Positions 86-45,322 of a DNA stretch of 64,000 nucleotides are shown piece after piece. A model generated the notes under the pieces. The model was not told where the DNA came from. It was given only the letters and a program-made list of their open reading frames with translations, and did no database searches. The first letter of the stretch is position 1; each line of letters starts with the position of its first letter. The translations under genes and the position numbers were made by a program. This DNA is from a virus, in the IMG/VR virus record IMGVR_UViG_3300035564_000075, positions 1 through 64,000 of that record. One strand, 5' to 3'.

Positions 86-158
86 GCCTTTGAAGCACAT
101 TTGGATGTGCGCCCGTTCCGTAAACGGGAGGTAGTCCGTTCGAATCGGATCATTGGCT
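86..158 (+). tRNA. tRNA-Thr(CGT)
   Basis: The anticodon stem CCCGT/ACGGG closes loop TCCGTAA, which reads anticodon CGT and has C at position 33. The T loop is TTCGAAT. The acceptor GCCTTTG/CATTGGC carries two T-T mismatches, and position 8 is A instead of T. The D stem is GCACA/TGTGC, as in the tRNA-Thr(GGT) gene at 3119. Confidence 0.7.
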
Positions 159-207
159 CATAGTTTCTTGCATCTATAAAATGCAAGTGGTGGACTCTCC
201 CATGAGC
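156..207 (+). other. hairpin unit after the first tRNA
   Basis: GCTCAT (156-161) can pair with ATGAGC (202-207). Inside it, CTTGCAT (167-173) and ATGCAAG (181-187) enclose a seven-base loop CTATAAA that looks like an anticodon arm. There is no T arm, and the outer stem overlaps the 3' end of the tRNA-Thr gene. It may be a degenerate tRNA or a processing hairpin. Confidence 0.3.
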
Positions 208-235
208 ATCAAATTTATGCCCAATTTGGTGTCTT

Positions 236-574
236 ATGTACCAATGTGATTGGTGTGGAGAATTCTTTGATCGTAGAAGGCATGGAAAGAAATCTGTATT
301 CGTTTTTTGTTCAAGAGTATGCAAGGAAAAAGCCCAGTCCATAGAAGGTGGAGACAAGTTCTCTTCCATGCGACCTCATCATTATGGAAATGGGAATTAT
401 CAATACAGACGAAGGGCATTTAGACATTATGGTGCAAAGTGCAATAGATGTGGATATTCCGAAAATGTGAAAGCCTTGCAGGTGCATCACAAAGATGGAA
501 ATCATCAGAACGGTCACATTGAAAATCTAGAAGTGCTTTGTGCTAATTGTCACGCAATTGAAACATGGGCCTAA
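236..574 (+). CDS. HNH endonuclease
   Basis: This 112-residue protein is a small HNH nuclease of the kind common in phage tRNA clusters and introns. The N-terminus has a zinc-knuckle (YQCDWCGEFF, then C-x3-C). The catalytic part has C-x2-C (CNRCG), then VHHKDGN with the paired histidines, then NLEVLCANCH supplying the last zinc ligands and histidine. It should cut DNA with a metal ion. The last codons and the stop lie inside the 5' end of the next tRNA gene (567). The gene looks more AT-rich than its neighbours, in keeping with a mobile or homing origin, which is inference. No intron or intein boundary is seen around it. The start at 236 has no strong ribosome binding site. Confidence 0.85.
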   Translation: MYQCDWCGEFFDRRRHGKKSVFVFCSRVCKEKAQSIEGGDKFSSMRPHHYGNGNYQYRRRAFRHYGAKCNRCGYSENVKALQVHHKDGNHQNGHIENLEVLCANCHAIETWA

Positions 575-639
575 GTTGTTGGTGGGTGGCATAATGCTCC
601 TGCAAAGCGTAGGATAGGGTTCAACTCCCTATAGGTCCA
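567..639 (+). tRNA. tRNA-Cys(GCA)
   Basis: Acceptor GGGCCTA/TAGGTCC pairs fully with one wobble. The loop CTGCAAA gives anticodon GCA with the normal T33; its stem TGCTC/GCGTA has one mismatch. The T arm is TAGGG-TTCAACT-CCCTA. The variable loop is short (GGA) and position 8 is A. The first eight bases overlap the end of the HNH gene. Confidence 0.75.
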
Positions 640-644
640 CCTAT

Positions 645-715
645 GCGGTTCTGTCCATTAGGGACAAGCAATCTTCTCTTGCGGGAAGAGTCTGGTTGAA
701 CACCAGAGAGCCGCA
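645..715 (+). tRNA. tRNA, isotype unclear (Ala-TGC or Glu-TTC)
   Basis: Acceptor GCGGTTC/GAGCCGC and T stem TCTGG/CCAGA pair fully, but the T loop TTGAACA lacks C56. Two anticodon arms compete. One is TCTTC/GAAGA with an eight-base loop TCTTGCGG (reading TGC). The other is GCAA/TTGC with loop TCTTCTC (reading TTC). A CCA end is encoded at 716-718. Confidence 0.5.
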
Positions 716-718
716 CCA

Positions 719-789
719 GCGGGTATGATATATTGGCAGTGTCGTACTCCTCCAAAGTACTGAAAAGGGTTCGATTCCCTTTACCCGCA
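719..789 (+). tRNA. tRNA-Gly(TCC)
   Basis: Acceptor GCGGGTA/TACCCGC is perfect. Anticodon stem GTACT/AGTAC closes loop CCTCCAA, giving TCC with C at position 33. T arm AAGGG-TTCGATT-CCCTT. It starts directly after the CCA of the preceding tRNA. Confidence 0.9.
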
Positions 790-794
790 CCTAT

Positions 795-865
795 GGCCGC
801 TAGTCCGACTGGCTAGGAGATCCTCCGCAAAAGGATCGTGATCGGTTCGAATCCGATAGTGGCCT
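795..865 (+). tRNA. second tRNA-Cys(GCA)
   Basis: Acceptor GGCCGCT/AGTGGCC pairs with one wobble. Anticodon stem ATCCT/AGGAT closes loop CCGCAAA, which reads GCA with C at position 33. T arm ATCGG-TTCGAAT-CCGAT. Position 8 is A. The window thus holds two tRNA-Cys genes, one with T33 and one with C33. Confidence 0.75.
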
Positions 866-866
866 C

Positions 867-900
867 TTGAGCTAGGTTTCACTTCCTTTCCCTAGCTCAA
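867..900 (+). other. 10-bp hairpin between tRNAs
   Basis: TTGAGCTAGG (867-876) and CCTAGCTCAA (891-900) form a perfect stem with a 14-base pyrimidine-rich loop. No T-run follows, so a processing or stability hairpin is more likely than a terminator. Confidence 0.5.
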
Positions 901-967
901 TTCGACCTCCTTTCTAAAAGTGGATGGGGTGGTTACATTGCCCTCAGTGTTTGGCCCCATCCACCAT

Positions 968-1039
968 GCCTCTGTAACTCAATGGCAGAGTAATCGCCCC
1001 TTAAGCGAGAAGTTGACGGTTCAAGTCCGTCCAGTGGCA
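968..1039 (+). tRNA. tRNA-Lys(CTT)
   Basis: Acceptor GCCTCTG/CAGTGGC has one T-T mismatch. D stem ACTC/GAGT. Stem TCGC/GCGA closes loop CCCTTAA, giving CTT with C at position 33. T arm GACGG-TTCAAGT-CCGTC. Confidence 0.85.
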
Positions 1040-1059
1040 CTAACCGTTGGTCTCCATCG

Positions 1060-1137
1060 TGAATGGGCGGGAGACATCTGGAGGGGCACGCCGCGGAGTG
1101 CAGCCAAGCCCCTGAATAAATCTGCATCCCCCATTCA
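1060..1137 (+). ncRNA. tRNA-sized structured unit, unknown
   Basis: TGAATGGG (1060-1067) pairs with CCCATTCA (1130-1137). Inside, GGGGC (1083-1087) pairs with GCCCC (1108-1112). A competing hairpin GTCTCC/GGAGAC uses 1050-1075. There is no TTC-type T loop, so it is not a standard tRNA. Confidence 0.35.
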
Positions 1138-1140
1138 TAT

Positions 1141-1213
1141 GCTTCTCTAGCTCAATGGATAGAGTAGCCGCCCTCTAAGCGGTTGGTTCAGGGTCCGAGT
1201 CCCTGGAGGAGCG
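1141..1213 (+). tRNA. tRNA-Arg(TCT)
   Basis: Acceptor GCTTCTC/GAGGAGC. Anticodon stem GCCGC/GCGGT closes CCTCTAA, giving TCT with C at position 33. T arm CAGGG-TCCGAGT-CCCTG has C at position 55. Confidence 0.9.
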
Positions 1214-1218
1214 CCTAT

Positions 1219-1286
1219 GGAAAGAGTCTGGGTAGCACCCTTGACCGTCTGGTATCAGATAGACTGAAGAGCACTTCTTCCTTTCC
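1219..1286 (+). ncRNA. tRNA-sized structured unit, unknown
   Basis: It follows the same CCTAT junction that separates the tRNAs. GGAAAG (1219-1224) pairs with CTTTCC (1281-1286), and small inner hairpins (GGG/CCC, GTCT/AGAC, GAAGA/TCTTC) give a cloverleaf-like outline without tRNA loop consensus. An alternative long stem GGTAGC (1231-1236)/GCTACC (1329-1334) competes. Confidence 0.35.
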
Positions 1287-1287
1287 T

Positions 1288-1324
1288 GCGTCACCTGCTA
1301 TAAGTGGTGAGACCTGGGCGACGC
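1288..1324 (+). other. hairpin unit
   Basis: GCGTC (1288-1292) pairs with GACGC (1320-1324), enclosing a CACC/GGTG hairpin. It may belong to the unit just upstream. Confidence 0.3.
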
Positions 1325-1337
1325 GTTCGCTACCAAT

Positions 1338-1410
1338 GCTTCTGTAGCTCAACGGTCAGAGCGCTTGTCCTACACACAAGATGTTGGTGGTTCGAATCCA
1401 CTCAGATGCA
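1338..1410 (+). tRNA. tRNA-Val(TAC)
   Basis: Acceptor GCTTCTG/CAGATGC has one T-T mismatch. Anticodon stem CTTGT/ACAAG closes CCTACAC, giving TAC with C at position 33. T loop TTCGAAT. CCA is encoded at 1411-1413. Confidence 0.9.
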
Positions 1411-1414
1411 CCAA

Positions 1415-1483
1415 GGAATAATCAGGCTTACTAAATATCATAATATGGCAACGTTCTGAATACGTTGCGCCCATGGTTATTCC
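1415..1483 (+). ncRNA. 69-base structured unit, unknown
   Basis: A seven-base-pair end stem GGAATAA (1415-1421)/TTATTCC (1477-1483) and an inner hairpin GCAACG (1448-1453)/CGTTGC (1463-1468) give tRNA-like size and closing stem. No T loop is present. Confidence 0.35.
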
Positions 1484-1487
1484 ACGC

Positions 1488-1559
1488 TGCGCGGTAGAGT
1501 ACTGGTAACTCAGAGGTCCCATAAACCTCGGTATGTGGGTTCGAATCCCACCCTCGCAA
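1488..1559 (+). tRNA. tRNA-Met(CAT)
   Basis: Acceptor TGCGCGG/CCTCGCA has one mismatch. Anticodon stem GAGGT/ACCTC closes CCCATAA, giving CAT with C at position 33. T loop TTCGAAT. Elongator Met, initiator and lysidine-modified Ile cannot be told apart here. Confidence 0.88.
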
Positions 1560-1564
1560 CCTTT

Positions 1565-1648
1565 GCCCTCCTGCTGGAATTGGTAGACAAGGACGCCCTA
1601 AAAGCGTTCGCCTTAATCGGCGTGAGGGTCCGAGTCCCTCGGTGGGCA
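1565..1648 (+). tRNA. tRNA-Leu(TAA)
   Basis: Class II tRNA with a long variable arm. Anticodon stem GACGC/GCGTT closes CCTAAAA, giving TAA with C at position 33. T arm GAGGG-TCCGAGT-CCCTC has C at position 55. Acceptor GCCCTCC/GGTGGGC has one mismatch. Confidence 0.9.
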
Positions 1649-1668
1649 CCTGGAGGCAAGAATGATAC

Positions 1669-1699
1669 TTGCAATCCTGTTCTGGACAATCTGTATACT
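1669..1699 (+). promoter_or_regulatory. possible promoter before the VWA gene
   Basis: TTGCAA and TATACT are spaced by 19 bases, ending about 18 bases before the VWA start codon. The long spacer lowers confidence. It would give the VWA gene its own transcript inside the tRNA array. Confidence 0.3.
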
Positions 1700-1716
1700 A
1701 TTTGATAGGAGATCAT

Positions 1717-2715
1717 ATGGGAACAAAAAAGATAGAACATCTCGTGAATCATATCGTATTGGTGCTTGATGGTAGTGGCAGTATGAGAGGACAGCCAGTT
1801 GAAGCGGTTGTCGATCGTGAAATAGATAACCTGAAACAACGTTCTGTGGATCTGAATCAGGAAACTCGCATCTCCATCTATCTCTTCAATACCAAGGTTG
1901 AGAATCTTGTCTTTGACATGGATGTAATGAGATTCAAGACTCTGCGTGGTCTTTATGATGCAGATGGGCAAACTGCCCTAATTGATGCAACCATGAAGGG
2001 TCTTGGAGACCACCAGCACATTCCGGAACTATACGATGACCATGCTTTTCTTGCTTATGTCATCACTGATGGTCAAGAGAATGCAAGTGTACACAGATCT
2101 GGTGAACTTGCAACCATGATCGAGAACCTTCCGGATAACTGGACTGTAGCATGTTTGGTTCCAGATGCAAATGGTGAATACGAAGCCAAGAAGTTTGGTT
2201 TTCCTGCTGGCTCAATCGCCAAATGGGATACTCATTCTGCAAAGGGCTTCGAGGAAGTTGGAAAGCAGTTCACTACTGTAACCAGCAACTACATGACCAT
2301 GCGTGCCTCTGGTGTGAGATCCACAAAGGGTCTATTCACTCTTGACTCTAAGGGATTGCACAAGTCTGACCTGAAACCAATCGATTTCAGTTACCAGATC
2401 TACAACATTCTGCATGATGGCAGAATTGACGAAGCTGTAGAGGATCTTACTGGTCGCAGATATGTTCCTGGCAGCACTTTCTATCAACCAATGAAAGCTG
2501 TGAAGATTCAGGACTACAAAGAGATCCTTGTGCAGAATGTGAAGAGTGGAATTGTTTATAGCGGAGAGAATATCCGTCAGTTGCTTGGATTGCCTTCCCA
2601 GACCGTGGAAGTGAATCCTGGACAGCATAAAGACTGGAAGATCTTCGTGCAAAGTACATCCTTGAACCGCAAACTGTTTGCGGGAACTCAGATCCTAGTG
2701 AGGATGGACTACTAA
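1717..2715 (+). CDS. von Willebrand factor A domain protein
   Basis: This 332-residue protein has a VWA fold with an apparent complete metal-ion-dependent adhesion site: DGSGSMRG near residue 20, a threonine in DGQTALIDAT, and VITDGQEN near 120. VWA domains bind protein partners through a divalent metal. The C-terminal half (from about residue 190) has no motif I recognise; its last part, with GENIRQLLGLPSQTVEVNPGQHKDWKIF split across the end, could bind a ligand or DNA, but that is unknown. The start at 1717 is chosen over an upstream ATG at 1669 because AGGAGA lies just before it. It sits alone among tRNA genes. VWA proteins often act with AAA+ or MoxR ATPases; none is adjacent. Possible roles are takeover of a host complex or tRNA-linked defence evasion, both inference. 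Confidence 0.8.
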   Translation: MGTKKIEHLVNHIVLVLDGSGSMRGQPVEAVVDREIDNLKQRSVDLNQETRISIYLFNTKVENLVFDMDVMRFKTLRGLYDADGQTALIDATMKGLGDHQHIPELYDDHAFLAYVITDGQENASVHRSGELATMIENLPDNWTVACLVPDANGEYEAKKFGFPAGSIAKWDTHSAKGFEEVGKQFTTVTSNYMTMRASGVRSTKGLFTLDSKGLHKSDLKPIDFSYQIYNILHDGRIDEAVEDLTGRRYVPGSTFYQPMKAVKIQDYKEILVQNVKSGIVYSGENIRQLLGLPSQTVEVNPGQHKDWKIFVQSTSLNRKLFAGTQILVRMDY

Positions 2716-2733
2716 TTTACGATAACGCGCCGC

Positions 2734-2780
2734 AGGTAAGCGGCTAGTGCCGACCGCATGAAATAGAAACGGACTTACCT
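2734..2780 (+). other. stem-loop unit between VWA gene and tRNA
   Basis: AGGTAAG (2734-2740) pairs with CTTACCT (2774-2780), enclosing CGGC-TAGT-GCCG. No T-run follows, so it is not a classical terminator. Confidence 0.35.
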
Positions 2781-2791
2781 CCGTAGGCCAT

Positions 2792-2873
2792 CGCAATGTG
2801 GTGGAACTGGTAGACACACCTGCCCTAGGAGCAGACGACTACGGTCGTGGAGGTTCGAGTCCTCTCATTGCGA
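2792..2873 (+). tRNA. tRNA-Leu(TAG)
   Basis: Acceptor CGCAATG/CATTGCG is perfect. Stem CTGC/GCAG closes CCTAGGA, giving TAG with C at position 33. Long variable arm. T arm GGAGG-TTCGAGT-CCTCT. Confidence 0.9.
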
Positions 2874-2951
2874 CAAACCCAATAAACGGGGACTGTTTGT
2901 AGGCTTCATAGTAACGGCCAGTGCACTGGTGTCGTAGCGTAGAAACCCTCA

Positions 2952-3025
2952 TCGCTCCGTAGCTCAATTGGCAGAGCAACAGACTTTTAATCTGGAGGTT
3001 GGGAGATCGTTGCTCCCCGAGGCGA
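2952..3025 (+). tRNA. tRNA-Lys(TTT)
   Basis: Stem CAGA/TCTG closes CTTTTAA, giving TTT with the normal T33. Acceptor CGCTCCG/CGAGGCG has one mismatch. The T loop ATCGTTG between GGGAG and CTCCC is abnormal (A at position 54). The 78 bases upstream (2874-2951) hold only small inverted repeats such as CCAGTGCACTGG. Confidence 0.85.
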
Positions 3026-3029
3026 CAAT

Positions 3030-3113
3030 GGAGTGCTGGCGTAACGGCTATCGCAGTGGTTCGCTAAACCACCCAACCGCAAGGTTGTCCGAGTCCGAAT
3101 CTCGGGCGCTCCG
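3030..3113 (+). tRNA. tRNA-Ser(GCT)
   Basis: Acceptor GGAGTGC/GCGCTCC. Anticodon stem GTGGT/ACCAC closes TCGCTAA, giving GCT with C at position 33. Long variable arm CAACCGCAAGGTTG. T loop TCCGAAT has C at position 55. Confidence 0.9.
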
Positions 3114-3118
3114 CCTAT

Positions 3119-3191
3119 GCTGGTGAAGCACATTCGGATGTGTGCCTTCTTGGTAAGAAGGTGGCAGTGAGTTCGAATCTCACCACTAGCT
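3119..3191 (+). tRNA. tRNA-Thr(GGT)
   Basis: Acceptor GCTGGTG/CACTAGC. Anticodon stem CCTTC/GAAGG closes TTGGTAA, giving GGT with normal T33. T loop TTCGAAT. Position 8 is A. Confidence 0.9.
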
Positions 3192-3251
3192 CTCTGACGG
3201 TGCAAGGTCCACCCCAAGCCCTTGCCGATCCCAAGGGGTCCGTCAGCCCAC

Positions 3252-3325
3252 GCCGACAAAGCTCATATTGGATGAGCAAGCGCCCTGTAAGCGCAAGGTA
3301 GAGAGTTCGAATCTCTCTGTTGGCT
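3252..3325 (+). tRNA. tRNA-Thr(TGT)
   Basis: Acceptor GCCGACA/TGTTGGC pairs fully. Stem GCGC/GCGC closes CCTGTAA, giving TGT with C at position 33. T arm GAGAG-TTCGAAT-CTCTC. Position 8 is A, as in the other two tRNA-Thr genes. Confidence 0.9.
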
Positions 3326-3329
3326 CTAT

Positions 3330-3413
3330 GGAAGCGTGGGGTAATGGCTATCCCTCCTGTCCTGAAAACAGACCAGCCGCAAGGCTGTGCGCGTTCGAGT
3401 CGCGCCGCTTCCG
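3330..3413 (+). tRNA. tRNA-Ser(TGA)
   Basis: Acceptor GGAAGCG/CGCTTCC is perfect. Stem CTGT/ACAG closes CCTGAAA, giving TGA with C at position 33. Variable arm CAGCCGCAAGGCTG. T arm GCGCG-TTCGAGT-CGCGC. Confidence 0.9.
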
Positions 3414-3416
3414 CCT

Positions 3417-3459
3417 TGGGCATATTTGCTCCTGATGCATGCTGTTGGAGATTTGCCCA
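3417..3459 (+). other. stem-loop unit
   Basis: TGGGCA (3417-3422) pairs with TGCCCA (3454-3459), with inner GCTCC/GGAG pairing. No T-run follows. Confidence 0.35.
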
Positions 3460-3555
3460 GAATAGGGTGGCACCTACCCCGTAGTCTCTTGGTGTAGTAG
3501 CAGCTAGCTCTGCTTACTGCCAGGGTAAGGCTTAGATGAAAGTGGCGTTCTACTC

Positions 3556-3573
3556 CCCGAGGAGAGGCTCGGG
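3556..3573 (+). other. hairpin before tRNA-Arg
   Basis: CCCGAG (3556-3561) and CTCGGG (3568-3573) form a stem with loop GAGAGG. The region 3463-3555 also folds locally (GGGT/ACCC, GTAGCAG/CTGCTTAC) but no gene is seen there. Confidence 0.35.
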
Positions 3574-3580
3574 CTAAACT

Positions 3581-3653
3581 GCCCCTGTAGCTCAATGGAT
3601 TAGAGCACTGGTCCACGGAACCAGTAATCCGAGTTCGAGTCTCGGTAGAGGCG
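3581..3653 (+). tRNA. tRNA-Arg(ACG)
   Basis: Anticodon stem CTGGT/ACCAG closes CCACGGA, giving ACG with C at position 33. Decoding of CGN would need A34-to-inosine. T arm CCGAG-TTCGAGT-CTCGG. Acceptor GCCCCTG/TAGAGGC has one mismatch. Confidence 0.88.
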
Positions 3654-3685
3654 CTAGCTCATGTACCATGTGTACAAGGAGTAAC

Positions 3686-3706
3686 GGAATTCCTACTAGG
3701 AATTCC
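3686..3706. repeat. long inverted repeat containing TCCTACTAGGA
   Basis: GGAATTCCTA, a central C, and TAGGAATTCC form a perfect 10+1+10 inverted repeat. It is the longest member of the TCCTANTAGGA palindrome family in this window and lies between tRNA genes. Confidence 0.7.
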
Positions 3707-3711
3707 AGCTT

Positions 3712-3794
3712 GCAGATGTGACGGAACCGGCATACGTGTCTGCCTCAAAACCAGATGTGCGATGCACACGGGAGTTCGAATCTCCCCATCTGCA
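3712..3794 (+). tRNA. tRNA-Leu(CAA)
   Basis: Acceptor GCAGATG/CATCTGC is perfect. Stem TCTG/CAGA plus a C-C mismatch closes CTCAAAA, giving CAA with T33. Long variable arm. T arm GGGAG-TTCGAAT-CTCCC. Confidence 0.88.
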
Positions 3795-3798
3795 CTAT

Positions 3799-3879
3799 GC
3801 GTGGGTTGGACAGGTGGTGAGTCCCCCTGACTGTAGATCAGGAGCCTCGGCTGTGGGAGTTCGATTCTCTCCTCACGCA
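3799..3879 (+). tRNA. tRNA-Tyr(GTA)
   Basis: Acceptor GCGTGGG/CTCACGC. Anticodon stem CCTGA/TCAGG closes CTGTAGA, giving GTA with normal T33. Long variable arm. T loop TTCGATT. Confidence 0.92.
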
Positions 3880-3883
3880 CAAT

Positions 3884-3966
3884 CGGCAATGGCAAAAGTG
3901 AGTTCCTAATTCTGGCGGTAAGGATAACGCTCTACGGTCCTGGGAAAACCTATCACTCCATTGCCG
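3884..3966 (+). ncRNA. 83-base structured unit, unknown
   Basis: CGGCAATGG (3884-3892) pairs with CCATTGCCG (3958-3966). After a CAAA bulge the stem continues AGTGA/TCACT. The interior (3902-3952) has no tRNA loops. The next tRNA follows after TAT, as at ordinary tRNA junctions. Confidence 0.4.
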
Positions 3967-3969
3967 TAT

Positions 3970-4042
3970 GCGCCTGTAGCTCAACGGACTGAGCAAGTGT
4001 TTCCTAAACACTAGGTTATGGGTTCAAATCCCATCAGACGCT
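3970..4042 (+). tRNA. tRNA-Arg(CCT)
   Basis: Anticodon stem AGTGT/ACACT closes TTCCTAA, giving CCT with T33. T arm ATGGG-TTCAAAT-CCCAT. Acceptor GCGCCTG/CAGACGC has one mismatch. Confidence 0.9.
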
Positions 4043-4080
4043 CTTGGCATGCTGGACCTGAAATCCAGCCTCTGCCAACT

Positions 4081-4157
4081 TCCTCCGGTATGTCTCAATG
4101 GTTAGAGCAACTGTCTTATGAGCAGCGAGTTGGAGGTTCGACTCCTCCACGGAGGAC
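4081..4157 (+). tRNA. tRNA-Ile(TAT), probable
   Basis: Acceptor TCCTCCG/CGGAGGA is perfect. Stem CTGT/GCAG (one wobble) closes CTTATGA, giving TAT with T33. T arm GGAGG-TTCGACT-CCTCC. The 3' acceptor strand also serves as the ribosome binding site of the next gene. Confidence 0.75.
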
Positions 4158-4158
4158 C

Positions 4159-4812
4159 ATGCTAAAGTATTTGATTTGTTCCGTACAGAGAAGCGGAAGC
4201 AACTTGCTGTGTGATTACTTGAAGAATACGAATGTCCTAGGAAATCCATTAGAGATGTTCAATCCACAAGGACCTAATGAGGGCTTCTACTTCACAGATG
4301 ATCATATAAGGCACATGATAGAAACAGATTCGCATGATGGTATTTTTGGTGCGAAAGTGATGTTCGATCAGGTAGTGTCTTATATAGGAACAAGAAGTTT
4401 CAATAGAATGTTTCATCATTCGAGGTTCGTCTTCATTCGAAGACAGGATAAGGTAGAACAAGCAATATCATTGTCCAGGGCAATGCAAACAGGAAGTTGG
4501 ATGGGCACACAAGAACCAACAATAGTTCCTGAATACAAATTCTGGCACATTCTCACCTGTCAGTATCTGATATATATGCAGGAAAGAGGATGGACACGTT
4601 TCTTTGAAGAGTATAAAGTTCCACATATAACAGTATGGTATGAGGACCTGCAACAAAACCCAGATGAGCAGTTGAATATAGTTACCTCATATATTCTATC
4701 AACAAAGACGAGTCTTAGCGCAGTAACAGATATGAAAATACAGCGCGATTCGCTAACAGAGATGTGGAAAGAACAGTTCAGCAAGGATCTAACAGAGAAG
4801 ATAAAAATATGA
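4159..4812 (+). CDS. Stf0-type sulfotransferase
   Basis: This 217-residue protein matches the Stf0 sulfotransferase family, known from mycobacterial trehalose 2-sulfotransferase, which transfers sulfate from PAPS to a sugar hydroxyl. The 5'-phosphosulfate loop is at the N-terminus (VQRSGSNLLCDYL, residues 9-21). The family blocks FGAKVMFDQ near residue 70 and RRQDKVEQAISLSRAMQTG near 95 are both present. It is about the expected length. The start is preceded by GGAGGACC, which is the 3' acceptor strand of the tRNA-Ile gene. Its stop overlaps the next start (ATGA). Its substrate in the host is unknown; cell-surface glycan or glycolipid is the natural guess. Together with the methyltransferase and glycosyltransferases nearby it suggests surface modification, for example superinfection exclusion, which is inference. 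Confidence 0.88.
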   Translation: MLKYLICSVQRSGSNLLCDYLKNTNVLGNPLEMFNPQGPNEGFYFTDDHIRHMIETDSHDGIFGAKVMFDQVVSYIGTRSFNRMFHHSRFVFIRRQDKVEQAISLSRAMQTGSWMGTQEPTIVPEYKFWHILTCQYLIYMQERGWTRFFEEYKVPHITVWYEDLQQNPDEQLNIVTSYILSTKTSLSAVTDMKIQRDSLTEMWKEQFSKDLTEKIKI

Positions 4813-5000
4813 TCATAAAACGTGTAAAAGCAATTTTAGCATATGTCTTTGGAAGGATTTTCATCTTCTTCTGGGTAATGTGCGCCAAGATGGATTTTTC
4901 GTCTGCTTTCAATACCTTGACTAGCATGGCAGACAATCTTAGAAGGATGGAACAACAACAAGACATACAAGAAAATTATAATAAGGTCATGCGGGAATAG
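4809..5000 (+). CDS. small single-pass membrane protein
   Basis: A 63-residue protein begins in an ATGA overlap with the sulfotransferase stop, so the two are probably co-translated. After a basic start (MIIKRVKA) comes one hydrophobic segment, ILAYVFGRIFIFFWVMCA, of membrane-spanning length. A polar, glutamine-rich tail follows. No family is recognised. The coupling suggests a membrane partner of the sulfotransferase, which is inference. The stop codon lies inside the next tRNA-Gly gene. Confidence 0.6.
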   Translation: MIIKRVKAILAYVFGRIFIFFWVMCAKMDFSSAFNTLTSMADNLRRMEQQQDIQENYNKVMRE

Positions 5001-5063
5001 CTCAATCGGTGGAGCGTCTTTCTGCCAAGAAGAAGGTTGCGAGTCCGAGTCTCGCTTTCCGCA
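4991..5063 (+). tRNA. tRNA-Gly(GCC)
   Basis: Acceptor GCGGGAA/TTTCCGC. Stem TCTTT/GAAGA closes CTGCCAA, giving GCC with T33. T arm GCGAG-TCCGAGT-CTCGC has C at position 55. The first ten bases overlap the preceding CDS. Confidence 0.9.
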
Positions 5064-5067
5064 CTAT

Positions 5068-5140
5068 GCTGGACTGGCGCAATGGTCAGCGCAATCGTCT
5101 GATAAGCGATAGGTTCTCCGTCCAAGTCGGAGGTTCAGCA
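5068..5140 (+). tRNA. tRNA-Ile(GAT)
   Basis: Acceptor GCTGGAC/GTTCAGC. Stem ATCGT/GCGAT closes CTGATAA, giving GAT with T33. T arm CTCCG-TCCAAGT-CGGAG has C at position 55. Confidence 0.9.
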
Positions 5141-5144
5141 CTAT

Positions 5145-5246
5145 GCTGGTAGTGGCTAATAAATGTGAGTGAGTCTTCAATGCAAGAAGATTCCGCCACG
5201 AGGGTGATCCTGCAGCGCACAGGCCCAACATTCCGCCCTCACCAGC
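5145..5246 (+). ncRNA. three-way-junction RNA unit, unknown
   Basis: GCTGGT (5145-5150) pairs with ACCAGC (5241-5246). Two adjacent stems fill the inside: GTGGC (5152-5156)/GCCAC (5195-5199) and GAGGG (5200-5204)/CCCTC (5236-5240). It follows a CTAT junction like a tRNA would. It has no tRNA loop consensus and no ORF with a ribosome binding site. Confidence 0.45.
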
Positions 5247-5250
5247 ACAT

Positions 5251-5322
5251 GCAACCGTAGTCCAGCGGTTAAGACGGTGGCCCCTCAAGCCTCCGACCCG
5301 AGTTCGATCCTCGGCGGTTGCA
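5251..5322 (+). tRNA. tRNA-Glu(CTC)
   Basis: Acceptor GCAACCG/CGGTTGC is perfect. Stem GTGGC/GCCTC (one mismatch) closes CCCTCAA, giving CTC with C at position 33. T arm CCGAG-TTCGATC-CTCGG. Confidence 0.88.
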
Positions 5323-5337
5323 CCTAGGAGAGCAAAC

Positions 5338-5487
5338 ATGTTCAGATGTAGATCCTGTTCTGCTGATTGTTTTGGTATGTCGCACGATCATGGCAAGTTT
5401 GGTTGTATCTATTGCCATTGTAGAAAGACAGAAGAACAGGTCGAACTGGAAGGAGAGCCTCCAAGTTCGTATGCCCTTGTCGTCTAG
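5338..5487 (+). CDS. small cysteine-rich zinc-ribbon-like protein
   Basis: A 49-residue ORF starts at an ATG with AGGAGA seven bases upstream. It begins MFRCRSCSADCFGM and continues GCIYCHCRK, giving two paired cysteine clusters (C-x2-C-x3-C and C-x2-C-x-C) that could bind zinc. Histidines lie between them. The C-terminus is acidic and proline-containing. Its last 15 bases lie inside the next tRNA-Glu gene, the same arrangement as two other short genes in the array. No family is recognised. The good ribosome binding site and clustered cysteines make it a likely real gene despite its size. Confidence 0.6.
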   Translation: MFRCRSCSADCFGMSHDHGKFGCIYCHCRKTEEQVELEGEPPSSYALVV

Positions 5488-5544
5488 CGGCCAGGACGTA
5501 AGCCTTTCAAGCTTGCAAGCAGAGTTCGAGTCTCTGCAAGGGCA
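5473..5544 (+). tRNA. tRNA-Glu(TTC)
   Basis: Acceptor GCCCTTG/CAAGGGC is perfect. Stem TAAGC/GCTTG closes CTTTCAA, giving TTC with T33. T arm GCAGAG-TTCGAGT-CTCTGC. Confidence 0.92.
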
Positions 5545-5548
5545 CTAT

Positions 5549-5620
5549 TCACGAGTACCATAATGGAAGTGGGCACGACTGTTAATCGTGTACGTGGTGG
5601 TCCGACTCCACCCTCGTGAG
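5549..5620 (+). tRNA. tRNA-Asn(GTT)
   Basis: Acceptor TCACGAG/CTCGTGA is perfect. Stem CACGA/TCGTG closes CTGTTAA, giving GTT with T33. T arm GGTGG-TCCGACT-CCACC has C at position 55. Confidence 0.92.
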
Positions 5621-5624
5621 CTAT

Positions 5625-5697
5625 GGGATCATGGTCTAACGGCCCATGACGCTTCCCTGTCAAGGAAGTAGTGAGAGTTCGACCCTCTCTGGTCCCG
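5625..5697 (+). tRNA. tRNA-Asp(GTC)
   Basis: Acceptor GGGATCA/TGGTCCC. Stem CTTCC/GGAAG closes CTGTCAA, giving GTC with T33. T arm GAGAG-TTCGACC-CTCTC. Confidence 0.92.
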
Positions 5698-5719
5698 CCT
5701 TGTGGTATAATGTACGTAT

Positions 5720-5791
5720 AGGTTGTTCGTCCAACGGCCAGGATAAGCGTCCCCAAAACGTTTGATGGGAGTTCGAATCTCTCACGACCTG
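5720..5791 (+). tRNA. tRNA-Trp(CCA)
   Basis: Acceptor AGGTTGT/ACGACCT. Stem AGCGT/ACGTT closes CCCCAAA, giving CCA with C at position 33. T arm GGGAG-TTCGAAT-CTCTC. A TATAAT at 5706-5711 lies just upstream but lacks a -35 box. Confidence 0.9.
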
Positions 5792-5801
5792 CCTTTCTTA
5801 T

Positions 5802-5875
5802 CTGGGATTAGCTCAGTCCGGTAGAGCACTGCGCCTGGGACGCAGGGGCCACAGGTCCAAATCCTGTATCTCAGA
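5802..5875 (+). tRNA. tRNA-Pro(TGG)
   Basis: Acceptor CTGGGAT/ATCTCAG. Stem CTGCG/CGCAG closes CCTGGGA, giving TGG with C at position 33. T arm ACAGG-TCCAAAT-CCTGT has C at position 55. Confidence 0.92.
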
Positions 5876-5879
5876 CTAT

Positions 5880-5951
5880 TGCCCCCTCATCTAACGGTAA
5901 GGATGGCTGGCCTTGAACCAGAGCATCGAGGTTCGAATCCTTGGGAGGCAG
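5880..5951 (+). tRNA. tRNA-Gln(TTG)
   Basis: Acceptor TGCCCCC/GGAGGCA has one mismatch. Stem CTGG/CCAG closes CCTTGAA, giving TTG with C at position 33. T loop TTCGAAT. Confidence 0.9.
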
Positions 5952-6004
5952 CTAGCTTGTCCTGCAGGCAAGCATGGACTAGACATCAACAGTGTCTAGT
6001 TTAT

Positions 6005-6076
6005 TGTCCCCTCGTCTAACGGTTAGGACCCCTGCCCCTGGAGCAGGGTATCGTAGTTCGAATCTACGGGAGACAG
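6005..6076 (+). tRNA. tRNA-Gln(CTG)
   Basis: Acceptor TGTCCCC/GGAGACA has one mismatch. Stem CCTGC/GCAGG closes CCCTGGA, giving CTG with C at position 33. T arm CGTAG-TTCGAAT-CTACG. Close paralogue of the tRNA-Gln(TTG) gene upstream. Confidence 0.92.
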
Positions 6077-6081
6077 CCTTT

Positions 6082-6154
6082 GCCGCTTTAGCTCAGTTGG
6101 TAGAGCGCATGCCCGAAGAGCATGGCGTCGGCAGTCCGATTCTGTCAGGCGGCA
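6082..6154 (+). tRNA. tRNA-Phe(GAA)
   Basis: Acceptor GCCGCTT/AGGCGGC. Stem CATGC/GCATG is perfect and closes CCGAAGA, giving GAA with C at position 33. T arm GGCAG-TCCGATT-CTGTC has C at position 55. Last tRNA of the array. Confidence 0.92.
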
Positions 6155-6174
6155 CACGAATAATAGAGGAAAAT

Positions 6175-44137: not shown

Positions 44138-44522
44138 ACTCTGCAAGCCTCTCTCTTATTGCCTTGGTATCAGCCTTAGACAATGTTCTCGAAGCTGGAT
44201 GCGGTGCAGCTATGTATGGATATGGTATTTGATCTAGCCCCGATTGTGCTACCTTGCCACACGCAAGCACCACACTGGGCTTGTGACTGACGATTTCCTT
44301 CAGCATAAACACTGGTTCTGGTGGAAACTTGTCATTGGGATGTGTGCCTACCTGAGTAGTAGATTCTGTAATGTAGACCTCTGCACCATCTGGTATCATT
44401 TCCTTCAGTCGTCTACCAGTTACAGAGCGCCACAACAGTCTCTCCCACACTCTCCTGTTGGTTATCCTATACGGATCTATCCCATTAGGAATGTAGGCAT
44501 TTTGTAGGAAGATAAGTATCAT
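44130..44522 (-). CDS. uracil-DNA-glycosylase-fold protein
   Basis: A 130-residue protein. VVLACGKVAQSGLD near 90 and IAAPHPASRTLSKADTKAI near 107 resemble the core strand and the late HPS-type motif of the uracil-DNA-glycosylase superfamily. The N-terminal water-activating motif is not clear, and it is shorter than true glycosylases. It may bind or cut modified bases, or be a structural relative. It is coupled to the radical SAM gene by an ATGA overlap. Confidence 0.5.
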   Translation of the reverse strand: MILIFLQNAYIPNGIDPYRITNRRVWERLLWRSVTGRRLKEMIPDGAEVYITESTTQVGTHPNDKFPPEPVFMLKEIVSHKPSVVLACGKVAQSGLDQIPYPYIAAPHPASRTLSKADTKAIRERLAEYA

Positions 44523-45322
44523 CGTTCCATCTCTTTTCGTAATGCATCCTTGATATAGAAAAGCTTTGTATCTCCCCTTGCCTGTTTACCATCATCAGGA
44601 TTCATTATACGGCTGTAACCAAGACCCTCAAGTTTCTTGATTGCATCATTGCCAAATTTTTTCCAGTCTATGGTTCTTTCTATATCAGGATTGTGATTCA
44701 GTTTTCCTACCTTGAAATGATCTACCCATGGTGCTGTCAGTTCTATCATGTAGAGTGTCTGATTAGGGTCTATGACTGGTTCCATAGATACCCATGTAGG
44801 AATACCCTTGTCATGGAATGCTTTGAGTGTGTCAAAGCGTTCTTGTGGAGAGGCGGCATTGGGTTCCCAACGTTGCGAATCCTTATCAGTAGCGAATACC
44901 AGTGTGATTGCATAGGCATCTTTGGGTCCAAACATATCCAGATCCTTTAGTGCTCTCTTGCCGCCCTTACTTAGGATGGCTACAGAGAAGCCATGCTCAT
45001 GCAATATCCTGATTGTATCATGTGTGTACTGGTAAGCATCTTCTAGTGCCTGATAGGGATCGGTGGTGAAGCATAGATGCACCTGTCCTGTCTTACCAAC
45101 GCTTTGCAAATAGGCAGCTTCTTTCTCCAGCTTGCCTAGGAAGTCAAAGTTGCGCGGTCCGGCATGGGAGAATGCAGTCTTCCTATCTGGTTGTCCCCTC
45201 ATTACTACATCGGGTCCAAAACAGTATAGGCAACCATGCAAACAACCACGGTAGATATTACATGCTAGTGCAGCATATTCTCTTGCAGCCCCCCTGGGCT
45301 CATACAGCAACGTCGTTTCCAT
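44519..45322 (-). CDS. radical SAM protein (SplB-like)
   Basis: A 267-residue protein with the radical-SAM cluster motif C27-x3-C31-x2-C34 (GCLHGCLYCFGP). The rest follows the spore photoproduct lyase-like (COG1533) layout: LCFTTDPYQALEDAY, SVAILSKGGKRALKD, VSMEPVIDP, and RGDTKLFYI at the end. These enzymes bind a 4Fe-4S cluster and SAM to start radical reactions. Phage copies are common and their substrates mostly unknown; DNA photoproduct repair is one known role in the family. Good ribosome binding site AGGAG. Confidence 0.85.
   Translation of the reverse strand: METTLLYEPRGAAREYAALACNIYRGCLHGCLYCFGPDVVMRGQPDRKTAFSHAGPRNFDFLGKLEKEAAYLQSVGKTGQVHLCFTTDPYQALEDAYQYTHDTIRILHEHGFSVAILSKGGKRALKDLDMFGPKDAYAITLVFATDKDSQRWEPNAASPQERFDTLKAFHDKGIPTWVSMEPVIDPNQTLYMIELTAPWVDHFKVGKLNHNPDIERTIDWKKFGNDAIKKLEGLGYSRIMNPDDGKQARGDTKLFYIKDALRKEMER

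Follow-up and report, generated by a model that had tools for sequence, protein, structure and literature searches.

The transfer RNA (tRNA) genes of a virus recorded in IMG/VR as IMGVR_UViG_3300035564_000075 encode C instead of T at position 33 in 20 of 32 cases and at position 55 in 9 of 32. All but one lie at the beginning of the window analysed here, a stretch of 64,000 nucleotides corresponding to bases 1-64000 of the record. Position 33 precedes the anticodon and position 55 is the U-turn uridine of the T-loop; few bases in biology are as highly conserved as U33 and U55. Most tRNAs of the array break one or both U-turn rules, always towards C; the change to "pyrimidine" affects the two U-turn uridines and spares the other universal ones, 8 and 54. 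The reading that we favour, giving it about an even chance, is that in this lineage the U-only rule has been relaxed to pyrimidine at both sites, in tRNAs that are functional and probably unedited. The array is a natural test of the need for U-turn uridines in decoding. It also probes the enzymes that read these uridines, namely modification enzymes and defence nucleases, and it bears on the existence of C-to-U tRNA editing in bacteria or phages. The same substitutions occur in phages of Mycobacterium smegmatis and in Treponema, which makes the question approachable in cultured systems.

Cytidine at both U-turn positions of the tRNA array

The set comprises 31 tRNA genes at 86-6155 and a tRNA-His gene located just upstream on the circular genome (Table 1). 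ARAGORN detected 29 of the tRNAs in the window and Rfam added Thr(TGT) and Gln(TTG). Position 33 was taken from the ARAGORN cloverleafs, except in these last two genes, where it was read directly from the sequence. Rfam alone supported 25 of the 31 window tRNAs, among which 14 carry C33. The initial annotation, made from the sequence alone, had counted C33 in 19 of 31 tRNA genes; this excess was borne out by both programs, the count becoming 20 of 32 with Ala(TGC) and tRNA-His included. Its gene list was otherwise recovered, but it had overlooked Ala(TGC) at 567-641, a further C33 tRNA, and included a second Cys(GCA) that we did not find. Together the tRNAs cover all 20 amino acids, His included, and a C33 tRNA is present for 15 of the 20.

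Position 33 is occupied by C in 20 tRNAs, by T in 12 and by a purine in none, in agreement with the initial annotation, which had seen neither A nor G at this site. C55 is found in nine tRNAs, and no purine occurs at this position among the 30 tRNAs folded by ARAGORN. The two substitutions occur independently of each other (Fisher p = 0.70). In all other respects the genes show the canonical features of the tRNA family (RF00005): cloverleaf, 7-nt anticodon loop, G18G19, G53, C56, A58 and C61. Among the 30 ARAGORN tRNAs, G53, C56 and C61 are invariant and T54 and A58 are each present in 29, while T8 is never replaced by C in the array. The stems had been described as intact, and indeed the mean number of unpaired symbols is similar in the C33 and T33 groups (1.89 and 1.83, respectively). 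Because stem quality is equal and the core is invariant, a wrong stem register or pseudogene decay can be ruled out as the cause of C33, and the array consists of genuine phage tRNA genes.

Table 1. tRNA genes of the array, with the residues encoded at the U-turn positions
tRNA	Position	Strand	Residues	Detection
Thr(CGT)	86..159	+	C33	ARAGORN
Ala(TGC)	567..641	+	C33	ARAGORN
Gly(TCC)	719..791	+	C33	ARAGORN, Rfam
Cys(GCA)	795..866	+	C33	ARAGORN
Lys(CTT)	968..1040	+	C33	ARAGORN, Rfam
Arg(TCT)	1141..1215	+	C33, C55	ARAGORN, Rfam
Val(TAC)	1338..1413	+	C33	ARAGORN, Rfam
Met(CAT)	1488..1561	+	C33	ARAGORN, Rfam
Leu(TAA)	1565..1650	+	C33, C55	ARAGORN
Leu(TAG)	2792..2874	+	C33	ARAGORN, Rfam
Lys(TTT)	2953..3026	+	T33	ARAGORN, Rfam
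Ser(GCT)	3030..3115	+	C33, C55	ARAGORN
Thr(GGT)	3119..3192	+	T33	ARAGORN, Rfam
Thr(TGT)	3252..3325	+	C33 (loop CCTGTAA)	Rfam; missed by ARAGORN
Ser(TGA)	3330..3415	+	C33	ARAGORN, Rfam
Arg(ACG)	3581..3654	+	C33	ARAGORN, Rfam
Leu(CAA)	3712..3795	+	T33	ARAGORN, Rfam
Tyr(GTA)	3799..3880	+	T33	ARAGORN, Rfam
Arg(CCT)	3970..4043	+	T33	ARAGORN, Rfam
Ile(TAT)	4083..4159	+	T33	ARAGORN, Rfam
Gly(GCC)	4991..5064	+	T33, C55	ARAGORN, Rfam
Ile(GAT)	5068..5141	+	T33, C55	ARAGORN, Rfam
Glu(CTC)	5251..5324	+	C33	ARAGORN, Rfam
Glu(TTC)	5473..5545	+	T33	ARAGORN, Rfam
Asn(GTT)	5549..5621	+	T33, C55	ARAGORN, Rfam
Asp(GTC)	5625..5699	+	T33	ARAGORN, Rfam
Trp(CCA)	5720..5793	+	C33	ARAGORN, Rfam
Pro(TGG)	5802..5876	+	C33, C55	ARAGORN, Rfam
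Gln(TTG)	5880..5951	+	C33 (loop CCTTGAA)	Rfam; missed by ARAGORN
Gln(CTG)	6005..6078	+	C33	ARAGORN
Phe(GAA)	6082..6155	+	C33, C55	ARAGORN, Rfam
His	545-620 of record L002 (outside the window, just upstream on the circle)		T33, C55	

Background rates were estimated with a search pattern that leaves positions 33 and 55 free. Among 558 usable, unselected phage tRNAs from 117 viral loci, we found C33 in 17 (3.0%), A33 and G33 in one each, and C55 in one (0.2%). Unselected phage arrays of at least 8 tRNAs contained C33 in 16 of 340 tRNAs, relative to which the excess in the present array is highly significant (binomial p = 4e-19); that of C55 is similarly marked (p = 5e-16). These background rates are lower bounds, since ARAGORN missed two C33 genes in the present array. 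In a set of 95 arrays with 8 or more tRNAs, which includes this one and in which most of the others were picked because C33 was present, this array has the highest share of C33 (0.62), followed by one of 10 tRNAs with 0.40.

C33 and C55 in other phages and in cells

Among the matches listed, C33 occurs sporadically in many phages, where it also affects Asn(GTT), His, Asp and Tyr tRNAs. Eight phage records that share their tRNA gene order encode T, C and A at position 33 in 143, 46 and 1 tRNAs, and T and C at position 55 in 170 and 20, and a given isoacceptor may have C in one member and T in another. This syntenic family is a second lineage that repeats the pattern independently. Mycobacteriophage ET08 belongs to cluster C1 (Bixzunavirus), which resembles the present case in its dense array of about 30 tRNAs and in the occurrence of C33; however, C33 is limited to 2 of 26 tRNAs in ET08 (Val CAC and Val GAC) and C55 is absent, as opposed to 20 and 9 of 32 here. 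A different substitution was observed in another phage array (L411), with G55 in 8 of 22 tRNAs.

When 84,980 species genomes were scanned for tRNAs combining C33 and C55, 53 loci were obtained. A tRNA-Thr(GGT) with both substitutions is conserved on chromosomes in about 25 records from Treponema and other spirochaetes (L267-L318), and no other Thr(GGT) was detected in T. bryantii. An Ala(CGC) tRNA of rumen Bacteroidales likewise carries C33 and C55. These cellular cases share with the phage the presence of both substitutions in one tRNA, but in Treponema they concern few tRNAs of the genome whereas here they extend over the whole array. In two metagenome-assembled genomes (MAGs) of Bacilli (G001 and G002, from L297 and L276), C55 is carried by 14 of 40 and 10 of 41 own tRNAs, respectively, and C33 by 2 and 1. 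TruB is present in these MAGs despite C55, and its loss as the cause of C55 in Bacilli was ruled out, TruB being found in all five genomes tested. For one tRNA shape in Bacilli, 15 C33 matches were obtained in 247 genomes versus 478 T33 matches in 40 genomes, which places C33 at about 0.5%, again as a lower bound.

A literature search, with subscription papers mostly outside its reach, found no report of C33-rich phage arrays. The 25 phage anticodon loops tabulated in a study of Shigella phage Sf14 all have T33 (PMC12482277). Functional tRNAs with C33 are exemplified by the eukaryotic initiator tRNA-Met (PMC9023262), but this is a single initiator species, while in the present array most elongator tRNAs are concerned.

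Possible origins of the substitutions

Several observations support a relaxed U-turn rule: only C and T, and no purine, occur at both sites while the other universal positions are kept and the stems are intact; orthologous tRNAs of the second phage family toggle between T and C; and Treponema conserves a chromosomal tRNA with C33 and C55. In older work on yeast tRNAs, replacement of U33 reportedly lowered function without abolishing it. The RNA would then keep its C, and the tRNA would decode with a weaker yet usable turn of the loop. Such tolerance might arise if the host translation machinery is lenient, or from the fact that phage tRNAs are supernumerary and present in large amounts during infection. 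Drift may be reinforced by mild selection for C, if a host factor that reads these uridines recognises it poorly. Other points weigh against this reading. Tolerance alone leaves the gap to the 3% background unexplained, and it does not account for why this phage went much further than others. The share of C33, 62%, lies above the drift expectation at the genome's GC content of 45% (p = 0.035). Moreover, C33 genes tend to lie next to each other in the array, as do T33 genes (runs test, p = 0.017), with ten consecutive C33 genes from 86 to 2874 and six consecutive T33 genes from 3712 to 5141, a pattern suggestive of a local history or of modules that differ in origin. The excess over drift and the clustering together hint at selection or a modular origin. 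The reading also assumes that the tRNAs, known here as genes, are expressed and functional, and the restriction to C or T is predicted alike by editing, tolerance and evasion.

Nuclease resistance and C-to-U editing are the two explanations that the initial annotation had offered. Selection could act if the phage tRNAs, through C33 and also C55, escaped a host enzyme recognising U-turn uridines, for instance an antiphage tRNA nuclease, while the phage made up for the destroyed host pool with tRNAs for all 20 amino acids. We regard this as unlikely, even if the completeness of the set, the C33 tRNAs for 15 amino acids and a C33 level slightly over the neutral one speak for it. One enzyme that reads U33 is human Elongator, in which U33C blocks tRNA-triggered acetyl-CoA hydrolysis while leaving binding unaffected (PMC11096365). 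Phage tRNAs have been proposed to resist host tRNases through mutations of the anticodon loop, position 33 not being named (van den Berg et al. 2023, PMC10264068). The present array shares with that case changes in the anticodon loop and the coverage of many amino acids; it differs in that the classical nuclease targets keep U33 and that a T-loop position is altered too. Evasion of known anticodon nucleases is thus poorly supported, because T33 is retained in tRNA-Lys(UUU), the target of PrrC, and in all four GUN tRNAs, the targets of colicin E5, and because C55 lies outside the anticodon loop. T33 is kept in 12 tRNAs overall. A Cas13a-like cutter would predict U-richer anticodons (PMC11042736); anticodon U is not higher in C33 tRNAs (1.0 versus 1.25), and U-rich anticodons were therefore ruled out as the driver of C33.

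If a host enzyme or an unrecognised phage enzyme converted C33 and C55 of the transcripts to U, the U-turn uridines would be restored and T and C would be equivalent in the DNA. C is indeed the sole replacement for T, without purines, at two positions whose U serves a defined structural purpose, and orthologs toggle freely between T and C. A known parallel is Methanopyrus kandleri, in which most tRNA genes have C at a universal U site and C8 is edited to U8 by CDAT8. There, position 8 is concerned and the deaminase is identified; the phage case involves positions 33 and 55 and is known from DNA alone. The initial annotation had recognised no deaminase in the window, and this holds for the complete, self-closing phage genome: we found no zinc cytidine deaminase, with no HxE...PCxxC motif in any six-frame open reading frame of at least 50 amino acids and no match to PF00383 or PF14437. 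PF00383 is also absent from three of four other C33-rich phage records above 90 kb and present in one. A single enzyme would have to serve two kinds of loop, and would have to do so across many unrelated phages and in some bacteria; since C33 and C55 appear separately in unrelated phages and on bacterial chromosomes, each of these would require its own editor. The four GUN tRNAs, which are of the queuosine type and all keep T33 (p = 0.014, post hoc), hint weakly that C33 remains C. Bacterial TGT needs U33-G34-U35, and T33 would be needless in these tRNAs if C33 became U before queuosine insertion. As a general rule, protection of queuosine insertion was ruled out by C33 in Asn(GTT), His, Asp and Tyr tRNAs of other phages, and it stands as a weak local lead. 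On this evidence editing appears quite improbable; if it took place, it would amount to tRNA U-turn editing in bacteria, and T33 in queuosine-type tRNAs would place it after queuosine insertion. We find it harder still to believe that the host itself uses C33 and C55 tRNAs, which the phage took or matched. The Bacilli MAG group, in which 10-14 of about 40 own tRNAs have C55 and some have C33, provides a precedent, but the 53 loci among 84,980 species genomes, a collection that may lack the host, the C33 frequency in Bacilli and the presence of at most four C33 tRNAs in each of three genomes examined at the tRNA level all argue against such a host trait.

Phage genome and array spacers

The record is 84,630 bases long and its last 123 bases repeat the first 123, indicating a circular genome of 84,507 bases. 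It encodes a terminase (PHROG 2), a portal protein (PHROG 64), a DnaQ-like exonuclease (PHROG 403), a DnaB-like helicase, a single-stranded DNA-binding protein (SSB) and endonuclease VII, and because of these genes the source of the array is assigned, from its gene content, to the tailed phages. The terminase and portal have no matching record in the phage collection. The close relatives amount to one 4.6-kb contig (81-83%), the remaining ones reaching only 34-46%, and searches with terminase, portal and DnaQ for relatives bearing the array returned short contigs (L003, L004, L389-L394), none with an array. In one of the terminase relatives, positions 1-64 (L392) match a Type II hammerhead ribozyme. 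A Shine-Dalgarno-like motif is present at 49 of 57 checked gene starts compared to 10% of random positions, which speaks against a Bacteroidota host. A radical SAM gene at 44519-45322 was considered as QueE and rejected, as it resembles PA0069/Rv2578c.

The array is interrupted by genes for an HNH endonuclease (236-574), a protein with a vWA domain (1717-2715), whose relatives are found in Myrna, Streptomyces and Synechococcus phages, and a Stf0 sulfotransferase-like protein (4158-4812). Between many neighbouring tRNAs lies a short CTATG-like linker. Instead of a second Cys(GCA), the spacer at 644-718, beside tRNA-Gly(TCC), holds a full cloverleaf-like fold with an encoded ACCA end and an "anticodon" loop of only 4 nt (z = -3.9), possibly a tRNA mimic. 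A short hairpin at 4044-4079 (z = -4.0) has a 6-bp stem closing an anticodon-arm look-alike, with no D or T arm, and its loop, CCUGAAA, is identical to that of the phage tRNA-Ser(UGA). Strongly structured hairpins are also found in the spacers 867-967, 1414-1487, 3655-3711 and 5946-6004 (z from -4.1 to -5.7).

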